DNA from: a virus
IMG/VR virus record: IMGVR_UViG_3300048014_000013
Coordinates: 1-31,780 of that record
Reading direction: 5' to 3' (one strand)
Length of the DNA: 31,780 nt
The stretch's first letter is position 1; every line of letters begins with the position of its first letter. The position numbers and the translations under genes were made by a program. The notes beneath the pieces are model-generated. The model worked only from the letters and a program-made list of their open reading frames with translations. It had not been told where the DNA came from and made no database searches. Below are positions 3,159 through 30,575 of this stretch, piece after piece.

Positions 3159-4331
3159 TCACACCCACTTGTTTTGTTTGATTGCTGAGAGAACAAGAGA
3201 AGTAACATCCGCCGCCGACAGTTGGTAGTCTTTATCAAACGGACTGAACATTGTGTGTATCTTCTTCCAGTGTTCAGCCGGTGGTTGTACTTTCATGATC
3301 GCCTTATAAAAATGAGCGGCAAACTCTTTAGCCTCATGGGTAGTTAGCTTGTTGATGAAAATAGTGGTATCAAACCTGCCGGGGCGATAGAACTCAGGCG
3401 GCATTGATTCCAGATGGTTAGACGTTCCTACCGTGAGAACCCGCGCCCGGTGCTCTTCAAGCCACCAGAGAAGCTGAGCCAACATTCTCTTTGTGGTTCC
3501 TTCCATATCCCCAGAAAACAACTTCTCGCACTCGTCCAACAAAAGTACGCAAGGTCCTTCTGCTTCTACTGACCGAAGGAAGTTAGTCATGTTTCGTTCG
3601 GACTCGCCTATCCATTTCGTAAGTAGACCTGATATATCGAGCCGAAACAGCGGCAAGTTCCACTCACGAGCTATCACCTTGGCGGCGAGACTCTTTCCAG
3701 TGCCGGGGAAACCATACAACATTACTCCCCGAGGACGAAACATTTGGGGAGTATTGGGTCCAAGAAAATAATCTCGGCTCTCAGTAACCCAATCTTTCAA
3801 GTCAGAAGGCATCATGTAGAAGTCATACTCTGTGCTTACCGGTTCCAAACCCAGAGTCGGACCCGCTATCAACTTACGGGTTTCGCCGATGCCCTTGCAA
3901 TCAATTGCACCGGTACGAGCCATCGTAAGCTGACAAATCTCACTGGCAGCTTTCAGGGTGAGGCCCTTCAAGCACTTGACGATGCCATCGACGTGGTTGG
4001 GCAAAGTGATACTTTCTACGTAATCTCGAATGAACTTGTCGGGGGTCGGAAGTATCCCGGCGTTGAAAATCAAACTGTCATGCTTATCCGGGGGATTCAA
4101 GACTACAAGGCAAGTACCGGCCTCCATCATCTTGTGATAGACAGCCGGTGTTGCGTCAGCAGGGTCTGATGTGAAGTAGATGAGAGAGCCGGGAAAAGCA
4201 CCACTTTTGTTGACGGGTATCTTCATCGGCTTTTTACTGGTCCAAAACTTGAGAACAGCTTCAAAGTTCAGGGCGTCGTCATAGTGTACGCCGATGATCG
4301 GGATTGAAGCGTTCACTGCATCAATAAACAT
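3159..4331 (-). CDS. Ycf46-like AAA+ ATPase, 390 aa
   Basis: This is a single AAA+ module. Walker A is GFPGTGKS (residues 207-214), Walker B is VLLLDE (262-267), sensor 1 is TSN (303-305), and the arginine-finger motif is YRPGRFD (315-321). GESERNM (242-248) is the usual element between the Walker motifs. The N-terminal 190 residues, with a 'LKGLTLKAA' helix near 121-129, resemble the N-terminal part of Ycf46-type ATPases. Such enzymes couple ATP hydrolysis to remodelling of protein or nucleic-acid complexes; the substrate is unknown. The gene has its own promoter (4381-4409) and a GGAGG 10 nt before ATG 4331. A 14-bp repeat lies inside it at 3896-3909, read as A-I-D-C. Confidence 0.9.
   Translation of the reverse strand: MFIDAVNASIPIIGVHYDDALNFEAVLKFWTSKKPMKIPVNKSGAFPGSLIYFTSDPADATPAVYHKMMEAGTCLVVLNPPDKHDSLIFNAGILPTPDKFIRDYVESITLPNHVDGIVKCLKGLTLKAASEICQLTMARTGAIDCKGIGETRKLIAGPTLGLEPVSTEYDFYMMPSDLKDWVTESRDYFLGPNTPQMFRPRGVMLYGFPGTGKSLAAKVIAREWNLPLFRLDISGLLTKWIGESERNMTNFLRSVEAEGPCVLLLDECEKLFSGDMEGTTKRMLAQLLWWLEEHRARVLTVGTSNHLESMPPEFYRPGRFDTTIFINKLTTHEAKEFAAHFYKAIMKVQPPAEHWKKIHTMFSPFDKDYQLSAADVTSLVLSAIKQNKWV
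3896..3909. repeat. 14-bp near-palindrome, copy 1
   Basis: TGCAATCAATTGCA on the plus strand: six-base arms TGCAAT/ATTGCA around CA. It lies inside the AAA+ ATPase gene, read on the minus strand as A-I-D-C. Confidence 0.85.
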
Positions 4332-4424: not shown

Positions 4425-4477
4425 AAAAGAAGGCCCCCAGACCTGCGGAGCAAAGTCTGAGGGCGATTACTTCTTTT
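4425..4477 (-). terminator. Strong composite terminator
   Basis: On the minus strand AAAAGAAG (4477-4470) pairs perfectly with CTTCTTTT (4432-4425). Inside it GCCCTCAGAC pairs with GTCTGGGGGC over 10 bp (one G-U), with TAATC bulged on one side. The U-rich arm CTTCTTTT gives intrinsic termination, and A/T symmetry would allow it in both directions. It ends the transcript from promoter P4 before the ATPase promoter P3. Confidence 0.8.
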
Positions 4478-28198: not shown

Positions 28199-28624
28199 TT
28201 AGATCGTGGTGTCTTCGCCGGTTTTCTCAACAAGCAAGTCTGCGATTTCGTCATCGTTGCCGATGTCGATACGCTTAGGCTTCTTGTGCTCCTCTCCCAG
28301 AGGAAGAGTGTCCGGCTTATCTAGGTCAAACTTAGAAAGGTCAACCGCGCCGTCTTCATCAAGCTTGAGTTTGGGCCGCGTAGATTCCTTCTCCACCTTG
28401 CGATGCACTTTCCAGATAGGGCGTCCGCTGTCTTCTTCCTGAAGCATCTCTACGGCCTGCTCACGACTCACCTTATAAATGACCCCGGCTTCGTAGAGAG
28501 CGCCCTTCCAGTGGTAGCGCTTGTACAGCGCCAGTTCCAACATCAAGGTGCCTGTACGAGGCCCCGCAAGCACAGCCTTCTTCGCCTGTGCATCCTGTAC
28601 TGCCGGTGAAATTTGCAAAGCCAT
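28199..28624 (-). CDS. Unknown neck-region protein, 141 aa
   Basis: ATG 28624 behind AAAGGAG. Basic N-terminal half (KRYHWKGALYEAGVIYKVSR, then EQAVEMLQEEDSGRP) and a charged, disordered-looking second half rich in K, D and E. Not recognised. Before insertion of the HNH cassette it would have followed the capsid gene directly. Confidence 0.6.
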   Translation of the reverse strand: MALQISPAVQDAQAKKAVLAGPRTGTLMLELALYKRYHWKGALYEAGVIYKVSREQAVEMLQEEDSGRPIWKVHRKVEKESTRPKLKLDEDGAVDLSKFDLDKPDTLPLGEEHKKPKRIDIGNDDEIADLLVEKTGEDTTI

Positions 28625-28667: not shown

Positions 28668-28701
28668 GAAAAGCGGGGCAGCTAGTACAAGCCTACCCCG
28701 C
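28668..28701 (-). terminator. Terminator after the HNH cassette
   Basis: On the minus strand GCGGGGTAG pairs with CTGCCCCGC (9 bp, one G-U) around 11 nt, followed by TTTT. It lies in the 118-bp gap behind the HNH gene. The rest of that gap holds no gene. Confidence 0.65.
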
Positions 28702-28742: not shown

Positions 28743-29498
28743 CTACTGACTCTCTAATGGTAGCAGATTCTTGTTCTTCAATGCAATCTTTTCTTGGCGA
28801 TGAAAAGCAATATGCTCGGAGTGAGTCATCAACTCAAGATTATCGGGATCGTTATTGCCTTTGTCTTCATCTTTATGATGAACAATCTCGTCATCAGCAT
28901 GGTTCTTTCCGGGTCCATGTTTATAGAGAGGCCGACCTAGCTTTTTTTCCATGACTACTATGTGCTCAAGCACATAACCGTCTTCAGCGGCGCGAGGATG
29001 TTCTGGCCTGTAAATACGAACATAGCCTCTTGAGGTAGTCTGATTTGTGCCTTTGAAGTAAGGTGAGTTTTCACCTTCTTGATACTGAGGTTCATGCCCA
29101 GACAAGTACCGCGTGGGGAGTCCCATAACAGACACTCTATCGCCTTTGTTATCTTTTTTGGTTTCCGTAGCCAGAGGAGTGTCTTGCCCGCACCCACAAA
29201 AACACTTGCCATGAAAAATCTTTTTGAGATCGTCTAACTGTGAAGCAATGCTTTTGTTGTAGCTGCCTTTCGTGCGATGAGAATTGGGTACAGTTTTACC
29301 TCGCTTCCAGTGCCCAGTCAGACGCATAACCGGCAAGCCTTGAATTGCTTGATCTACTCCATTTCGGTTTTTGTAGTAAGTGGCTACAGCCGTGGCTCCT
29401 CCACAACCGCAATGGCACATCCCAAAAAAATTGCAATTGATTGCACCACAGATACACTTGTTCTGCGCCTTGTAAATCTGATACTTAGTCATAAGCAT
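28743..29498 (-). CDS. HNH homing-type endonuclease, 251 aa
   Basis: ATG 29498 with GGAGG 7 nt upstream (second ATG two codons later). The N-terminal half has two copies of a zinc-binding module: CxCxC ... GLP-x-x-x-L/Y-x-x-GH (about 28-63 and 99-135). The C-terminal HNH domain shows EHIVVME (H179), IVHHKDEDKGNNDPDNLELM (H207, H208, N220) and HSEHIAFH (229-233). It cuts DNA, probably a homologous phage lacking the insertion. It has its own promoter, a regulated ribosome site and its own terminator, so it is a mobile cassette between capsid and neck genes. Confidence 0.9.
   Translation of the reverse strand: MLMTKYQIYKAQNKCICGAINCNFFGMCHCGCGGATAVATYYKNRNGVDQAIQGLPVMRLTGHWKRGKTVPNSHRTKGSYNKSIASQLDDLKKIFHGKCFCGCGQDTPLATETKKDNKGDRVSVMGLPTRYLSGHEPQYQEGENSPYFKGTNQTTSRGYVRIYRPEHPRAAEDGYVLEHIVVMEKKLGRPLYKHGPGKNHADDEIVHHKDEDKGNNDPDNLELMTHSEHIAFHRQEKIALKNKNLLPLESQ
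29432..29445. repeat. 14-bp near-palindrome, copy 13
   Basis: TGCAATTGATTGCA, perfect arms; inside the HNH gene as A-I-N-C. Confidence 0.85.
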
Positions 29499-29504
29499 AA
29501 AAAT

Positions 29505-29529
29505 ACCTCCAGATTTTTAGTCTGGAGGT
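29505..29529 (-). promoter_or_regulatory. Hairpin sequestering the HNH ribosome site
   Basis: ACCTCCAGA and TCTGGAGGT form a perfect 9-bp stem around CTAAAAA; the 3' arm contains GGAGG, the ribosome site of the HNH gene, followed by ATTTTTATG. The 5' arm begins right after the -10 of P8. It may also act as a terminator for capsid transcripts. Confidence 0.8.
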
Positions 29530-29559
29530 ATTATACCGGCCCAATTAGTTATTTGTCAA
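29530..29559 (-). promoter_or_regulatory. Promoter P8 (TTGACA-18-TATAAT)
   Basis: Both hexamers are perfect sigma70 consensus; spacing is 18. The expected transcript start, near 29523, falls inside the 5' arm of the ribosome-site hairpin. Drives the HNH gene only. Confidence 0.85.
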
Positions 29560-29568
29560 GCCCCGTGT

Positions 29569-30507
29569 TTACCGCGATCCCACCAAGCCTGTGTACTTAA
29601 CAATCGCGTTCACTTCTTCTATGGCGAAAGCCACGCGAGCCGAGAGCACGATGATGAAGCACCGACGCCGGATGTCCTTGGTGTACTCGATCTGGATATT
29701 CCGCTGAACACCGAAGATAAGGTTCATGGGGTCCGTAAAGAGGCCGGTCGTACCAGGCATCAGAGCCACAGGGGTAACCTGCGAGCCGAAGATGTACAGG
29801 GGCAGAGTGCCCTGAATGTTCTGGTCGCCCAGAGCACCCAGACGGCTGGCGTACTGGTCGCGCATCTCGGTCTCGTTGTCCACCGAGACAAAGTGCTTGA
29901 GAGCGGGCCGGTTGCGGAGATAGCGCGTCGGCATCGTCTTCAGAGCCGTCTTCACGGCGTTCTTGTCGAAAGCACCGTTGATGCTCGCCACGTTAGCAGT
30001 TGCCAACTTGATGAACCCGTTTTGCAGGGCCAAAAAGTTGTCGCTGCTGCTCGTGTCGCCAGTGAGAGCAAGCTCTTCCAGATCGAGCGCTGCACGCTCT
30101 GCGATCAGATCGACGATGGTCTGGTGCAGGCCACCTGCGCCGGTCTGAAGCGGAACATTGACGTTGCCGCGCTCGATGTTGTCCTCGATCACGTCGTAGG
30201 AAAGCTGAATCTCAGCCACCACTTCCGACGTGTTCAACTGGACCTGACCGAGATCGGGGCTGGTGCGCTGTGCATCGGAGAGCGCCGTGTACTCGGTACC
30301 AGCGTTCAGGATGCGGCTACCGAAGCCGAGCTTGTTGATCTTCATCTGAGGCGAAGTCATGGCCACCGTGCGGCAGGTAGTCAGAACTGTCGGGGTATCG
30401 ATCAGAGTACGAATAAACTGATCTGTCTGCTGGGGATTGAGACGGCCAGCAGTCTGCAAGTCCGCTAGTGCAAGGTCTGCCTTTTTGATGATGTCGCTGT
30501 TTTCCAT
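29569..30507 (-). CDS. Major capsid protein (HK97-like), 312 aa
   Basis: I start at ATG 30507 (MENSDIIKK), 10 nt after GGAGGG, which lies in the longer frame. The layout matches HK97-type coat proteins: N-terminal helix (IKKADLALADL), a beta-rich E-loop region, long spine helix (VDLIAERAALDLEELALTGD, a typical 'R-A-x-D-L-E-x-x-x-L-x-G-D' signature), a P-domain with YLRNRPALKHFVS, and a closing RRCFIIVLSARVAFAIEE. It builds the icosahedral shell. The 49 bp upstream hold no obvious promoter. Confidence 0.88.
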   Translation of the reverse strand: MENSDIIKKADLALADLQTAGRLNPQQTDQFIRTLIDTPTVLTTCRTVAMTSPQMKINKLGFGSRILNAGTEYTALSDAQRTSPDLGQVQLNTSEVVAEIQLSYDVIEDNIERGNVNVPLQTGAGGLHQTIVDLIAERAALDLEELALTGDTSSSDNFLALQNGFIKLATANVASINGAFDKNAVKTALKTMPTRYLRNRPALKHFVSVDNETEMRDQYASRLGALGDQNIQGTLPLYIFGSQVTPVALMPGTTGLFTDPMNLIFGVQRNIQIEYTKDIRRRCFIIVLSARVAFAIEEVNAIVKYTGLVGSR

Positions 30508-30575
30508 GTTCTGCCTACCCTCCAAGATATATGAATCTGTTTACCACTCCAGCCTAACTGCAAACCTTCAGTCCG

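Follow-up and report, generated by a model that had tools for sequence, protein, structure and literature searches.

In a viral DNA of 31,780 nucleotides, an HNH endonuclease gene lies behind the major capsid gene, and the −10 box of a promoter in front of it forms the base of a hairpin that covers its Shine-Dalgarno (SD) sequence. We consider it likely that the HNH gene was inserted after the capsid gene, that the hairpin silences RNA reading through from the capsid gene, and that RNA from the gene's own sigma70-type promoter is the one translated. The window, meaning the whole stretch analysed, corresponds to positions 1-31,780 of the IMG/VR record IMGVR_UViG_3300048014_000013. All elements of the locus are on the minus strand and are listed below.

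29569-30525, minus: major capsid protein gene, upstream neighbour of the HNH gene (phrog_1623, E=6e-94)
29559-29554, minus: −35 hexamer TTGACA, 6/6 match
29535-29530, minus: −10 hexamer TATAAT, 6/6 match, 18-nt spacer from the −35 hexamer
29521-29532, minus: 5' arm of the hairpin (AATACCTCCAGA), from a perfect 12-nt inverted repeat and the fold
29522-29524, minus: predicted transcription start, best A29523, inferred from spacing, 7 nt past the −10 hexamer
29502-29513, minus: 3' arm of the hairpin (TCTGGAGGTATT), containing the SD, from the inverted repeat and the fold
29510-29506, minus: SD sequence GGAGG, 7 nt ahead of the ATG at 29498
29498-29532, minus: alternative reading of the hairpin as an intrinsic terminator (stem, then TTTTT), d-score 13.3, TTTTTATG tail
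28743-29498, minus: HNH endonuclease ORF, 251 aa, start ATG 29498-29496, HNH_3 domain at residues 179-229
28673-28701, minus: terminator-like hairpin downstream of HNH (GCGGGGTAG-11-CTGCCCCGC, then TTTT), GC-rich, d-score −1.6
28199-28624, minus: next gene after HNH; in L049, the closest relative, its homologue is directly 3' of the capsid gene

HNH gene and its capsid neighbour

The product of the HNH ORF matches Pfam HNH_3 (PF13392, E=4e-10) and the PHROG HNH endonucleases, and the conserved HNH residues are present. The ORF encodes an HNH enzyme, HNH and GIY-YIG being homing-type endonuclease classes, with putative homing activity. A search of PDB sequences with the protein returned no matches. 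Its structure model was confident only for about residues 150-245, and the best structural match in the PDB was I-HmuI (1u3e_M, E=0.039, probability 0.98), a weak match made with a low-confidence model. Genome and plasmid searches returned distant HNH matches only. Among 45 relatives of the protein on viral contigs, the best had 49% identity over ~90 residues. Almost none of these 45 genes carries a strong SD hairpin, which is therefore no common trait of the family. On the N-terminal side of the HNH domain, residues ~15-65 and 95-135 hold two CxCGCG-type motifs, each followed by G-x-P-x-x-x-L-x-GH. They are possibly tandem zinc-binding DNA-recognition units, in a part of the protein where the structure model has low confidence.

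The first-pass annotation had named the upstream gene as capsid, which agrees with its PHROG match and with its 69% nucleotide identity to the gene annotated as major capsid in Stenotrophomonas phage Summit. Concatenated capsid and HNH queries found no annotated phage having both in one place. Exact searches of IMG/VR retrieved neither the window hairpin nor its promoter-plus-hairpin form, so the window leader is without a close copy there. Rfam reported no intron and no riboswitch at the locus, and a group I intron remnant, which we had considered, was set aside.

Promoter and hairpin in the HNH leader

The leader reads ...cTTGACAaataactaattgggccggTATAATACCTCCAGACTAAAAATCTGGAGGTATTTTTATG... 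on the minus strand and contains both promoter and stem. TTGACA-18-TATAAT, the promoter named in the first-pass annotation, scores 12/12 against the sigma70-type consensus (29559-29530) and is the sole perfect match within the window. By number, promoter-like matches are not enriched in the window (13 found, 13.0 expected), and the argument for this promoter therefore rests on its perfect score and its position. The promoter is not of the T4 late type (TATAAATA): TATAAT is accompanied by a perfect TTGACA at 18 nt.

The hairpin (29532-29502) has a perfect 12-bp stem and a 7-nt loop. An earlier description of a perfect 9-bp hairpin burying GGAGG was correct about the burial, which the fold reproduces, but nine pairs is an undercount. 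The −10 box had also been placed next to the 5' arm. It does not abut the arm but overlaps it by 3 nt, its last three bases (AAT) being the base of the arm.

This is the only perfect stem of at least 12 bp in the 31.8-kb window. Stems of that length were missing from all 60 Markov-simulated windows matched to the real one in dinucleotide composition, in which stems of at least 9 bp occurred about once per window. The folding z-score of the leader is −3.9 to −4.3. Within 539 distinct SD-bearing genes from the window and related loci, only in the HNH gene does a perfect stem of more than 8 bp enclose the SD.

Predicted accessibility of the ribosome site

We computed SD accessibility for RNAs with different starts, including 29640-29533, which retain the full 5' arm, and 29529-29520. 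RNAs with the full arm, like those reading through from upstream, were predicted to form a stable hairpin that sequesters the ribosome site, with all SD bases paired and a cost of 14-16 kcal/mol for opening GGAGG. The predicted cost is 5.2-5.5 kcal/mol for starts at 29524-29520, and the SD/anti-SD duplex has a predicted energy of about −10.6 kcal/mol. The masking switch falls, in these predictions, between starts 29527 and 29524; for starts at or upstream of 29527 the SD would stay masked.

Since the promoter overlaps the hairpin, its own RNA is predicted to lack most of the 5' arm, the start being placed by spacing. A start at A29523 keeps 3 of the 12 arm bases. The proposal that a start 6-8 nt past the −10 box would remove most of the arm and leave GGAGG free thus holds for the arm and only partly for GGAGG: the SD of the short RNA is predicted to retain weak pairing with downstream sequence, with a mean P(unpaired) of ~0.48.

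Position of the HNH gene among capsid relatives

No HNH match was found around the capsid relatives in 82 loci. In L049 the capsid stop is at 3442 and the match to the window's next gene begins at 3543. Relative to these genomes, the HNH gene is present in the window as an insertion. A strong intrinsic terminator lies no more than 115 nt past the capsid stop for 32/57 distinct relatives versus 0/263 random positions, and is missing in 25/57. In the window, the terminator-like hairpin lies 41 nt past the HNH stop and 48 nt before the next ATG, and it is probably the original capsid terminator. The relatives often have a terminator after the capsid gene and the window has a terminator-like hairpin after HNH, so the simplest reading of the gene order is an apparent insertion of the HNH gene plus leader downstream of the capsid stop and upstream of the capsid terminator.

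Recurrence of the leader behind other capsid genes

We searched IMG/VR three times by leader pattern alone, ignoring gene content. Search (i) used TATAATN-CCTCC...GGAGG...ATG and returned 33 distinct leaders, in which the −10 box and the CCTCC/GGAGG pairing are imposed by the pattern. The stem extends through AAT/ATT and the free N in five of them, the window included. Two of the other four, L339 and L345, precede HNH nucleases. L339 encodes an HNH+NUMOD3 protein (phrog_655 homing endonuclease) directly behind a phrog_1357 major capsid gene, and L345 an HNH_3 protein directly behind a phrog_1328 major capsid gene; neither capsid gene has meaningful BLAST similarity to the window capsid protein. 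In both, TATAAT overlaps the stem that buries the SD, and the −35 boxes are weak. The arms of the window, L339 and L345 differ (ACCTCCAGA, GCCTCCGTA and CCCTCCTGTAG) with matching changes in the opposite arm, which argues that it is the pairing with the SD that is maintained. In L373 and L374, relatives of L345, the gene order is capsid, terminator, next gene, and in L345 it is capsid, leader, HNH, terminator, homologous next gene. By this order, L345 shows the same insertion into the gap between capsid stop and terminator, in another lineage.

Search (ii) asked for an SD hairpin before ATG and did not require a promoter. It recovered L301, L297 and L270, all with the T4-type late promoter motif at the stem base. 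L301 is a GIY-YIG-type homing endonuclease (PHROG: homing endonuclease) whose gene immediately follows that of a phrog_138 major head protein, and L270 and L297 are behind tail sheath genes. Search (iii), with a T4-late pattern, gave further GIY-YIG/NUMOD3 and HNH nucleases and the T4-type lysozyme gene e (L348), a positive control. By Pfam, homing-type nucleases were encoded by 7/27 ORFs at perfect stems of at least 9 bp and by 0/23 of those tested at shorter stems (Fisher p=0.011). The recovery of the capsid-adjacent L339, L345 and L301 by searches blind to gene content supports the idea that the nuclease is uncoupled from capsid transcription.

A related arrangement is found in the cultured Vibrio phage 1.232.O (MG592596), where an HNH gene follows the capsid gene and TATTAT adjoins a hairpin over GGAGG. 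The predicted release in this leader is just ~3 kcal/mol, which makes it a weaker case. In the same phage (L377; 2353-2623, 2814-3299), a group I intron (RF00028) lies within the 3' portion of the capsid gene, and the HNH gene comes after exon 2. The annotated capsid CDS ends at the intron, and the HNH gene has its own −10 box and SD hairpin.

Similar leaders were also seen ahead of other genes. In L257, TTGACA-17-TAGAAT overlaps a 10-bp SD-burying hairpin before a serine recombinase with a Resolvase domain (1537-2275), an instance of this leader logic in front of another kind of mobile enzyme. SD hairpins overlapped by TATAAT are found ahead of a tyrosine integrase (L323, 8081-8964) and a SnoaL-like protein (L319, 2-600), so this leader type is not restricted to homing nucleases.

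Proposed mechanism and alternative explanations

We propose that a free-standing homing-type HNH gene, together with its leader, became inserted behind the capsid stop codon and ahead of the terminator of the capsid gene. Its promoter is of the host sigma70 type, and the −10 box is the base of the 12-bp hairpin that buries the nuclease SD. Capsid read-through RNA would carry both arms, leaving the SD masked and the nuclease not made. RNA started near 29523 would lack 9 of the 12 bases of the 5' arm, form neither the SD mask nor the terminator, and be translated. The expected outcome is a low nuclease output set by the promoter, probably early and independent of late capsid transcription. The first-pass annotation had suggested this uncoupling of the nuclease from the capsid gene, with read-through RNA silent and own-promoter RNA translated, and the anatomy of the locus, the folding energies and, independently, the comparison with other leaders all support it at the level of sequence.

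The hairpin also has the form of an intrinsic terminator, a stable stem with a direct U-tract, and the A-U rich base of the stem leaves its efficiency uncertain. It could be mainly the terminator of the capsid gene, with the nuclease captured right after it and the SD masking a by-product. Its d-score of 13.3 falls in the range spanned by terminators that follow capsid genes in the relatives, its position equals theirs, and scores above 0 occur in only 2/1112 overlapping window tiles. We nevertheless find this account unlikely. It leaves the overlapping promoter unexplained, a separate GC-rich terminator-like hairpin sits after HNH, and the relatives' terminators are G/C-rich and not built around CCTCC/GGAGG. 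The parallel leaders score weakly as terminators (L345 1.0, L339 −7.2) and still keep SD burial and the −10 overlap, so the common feature is SD masking, not termination. The pure terminator reading was set aside. In the window, masking and termination may both act: part of the capsid read-through RNA may be stopped at the hairpin as well as silenced, and a start at 29523 would escape both.

The inverted repeat could instead be an operator site in the DNA, bound by a dimeric repressor that is either the nuclease or a phage regulator. The repeat and the −10 box overlap, I-TevI represses its own late promoter (PMC2988022), and promoter-hairpin overlaps are also present ahead of the integrase in L323 and a Rha-type regulator in L329. 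However, the arm sequence complements the SD, and unrelated nucleases keep the SD pairing despite different flanking arm sequence. An operator would be compatible with RNA masking and does not exclude it. As the sole function of the repeat we judged it improbable and set it aside. Least credible of all is an unselected, accidental promoter and hairpin, with the nuclease made from capsid read-through. The lack of overall enrichment of promoter-like matches would fit an accident, but the length of the stem (in 0/60 simulated windows), its occurrence at 1/539 genes and the independent recurrences speak against one. Silencing of capsid read-through by SD masking, with translation from the inner promoter, remains our preferred explanation.

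Comparison with known systems

RNA structures sequester the ribosome-binding sites of I-TevI, I-TevII, I-TevIII, T4 segB and Aeh1 mobE, and the promoters of these genes are placed so that their own RNA is too short to form the structure (PMC2988022). Gene e was added to the hairpin-masked set (PMC3014915). The reason for the hairpin control is debated, with toxicity, splicing and limiting dose as candidates (PMC2988022).

In I-TevI, as in I-TevII and I-TevIII, the read-through RNA folds over the ribosome site and the RNA from the overlapping promoter does not, as proposed here. These genes are intron-encoded and mostly GIY-YIG, whereas the window locus is without an intron. I-TevI has a late promoter, its early RNA being silent and its late RNA active. 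The first-pass annotation describes this precedent correctly. With a host-type promoter that would act early and capsid read-through that would be late, the timing in the window is probably the reverse of that in T4. Aeh1 mobE is a closer precedent. It is a free-standing HNH homing endonuclease gene with a hairpin-sequestered ribosome site and a promoter whose RNA lacks part of the hairpin (Gibb and Edgell 2007, 2009, as reviewed in PMC2988022), and it sits within an essential phage transcription unit. It differs in belonging to a T4-type phage, with a T4-type late promoter and a ribonucleotide reductase gene as context, in contrast to the host-type sigma70 consensus, capsid neighbour and non-T4 phage of the window. 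T4 segB, which is free-standing, and the late lysozyme gene e share the hairpin-masked ribosome site and overlapping late promoter, and differ from the window in promoter class and gene context. The IS10 transposase gene is subject to fold-back inhibition of read-through RNA, by which a mobile element shields its nuclease gene from outside transcription. The pairing there is supplied by the transposon end, and the protein is unrelated.

The hairpin logic is already known from I-TevI, segB and mobE; the differences here are the host-type promoter, with its probably reversed timing, the occurrence in non-T4 phages and the recurrence behind capsid genes. Our literature search, within a collection of open-access papers, found no post-capsid or sigma70 versions of the hairpin leader. 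It was in T4-type phages that this control of homing endonucleases was established. Its occurrence with a host sigma70 consensus in a non-T4 phage, and again with unrelated nucleases next to capsid genes of other families, points to one selective reason, insulation of the nuclease from a transcript that is among the strongest of the phage. A broader reading, which we put forward tentatively and hold at somewhat below even chances, is that homing nucleases settled more than once in the interval from the major capsid stop to its terminator, each gaining a hairpin leader with a host-type promoter inside, where the hairpin silences and perhaps terminates capsid RNA and the inner promoter escapes both. 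If true, the leader would be an insulator module that arose convergently, dictated by how strong the capsid transcript is and timed in the opposite way to T4. The leader provides a simple DNA signature for locating such nuclease genes, and Vibrio phage 1.232.O is a cultured system for testing the related, weaker arrangement.

Other features of the window

A 14-bp palindrome, TGCAATYRATTGCA, has 15 copies in the window with at most 2 mismatches (12 exact), versus 0.42 expected.

Window, palindrome copies: 3896, 4799, 7034, 7266, 8610, 10838, 14495, 15742
Window, remaining copies: 17119, 18810, 22290, 23657, 26686, 29432, 30786

One copy falls inside the HNH ORF. The capsid-relative loci, 395 kb in all, contain 35 exact copies versus about 0.006 expected, often directly ahead of an SD or past the capsid terminator. 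The palindrome is a possible dispersed operator, partition or similar site. At 4433-4464 (minus), a terminator-like hairpin of 12 pairs consists of GCCCTCAGACTTTGCTCCGCAGGTCTGGGGGC followed by CTTCTTTT, and it is possibly the other strong site of the terminator tile scan.
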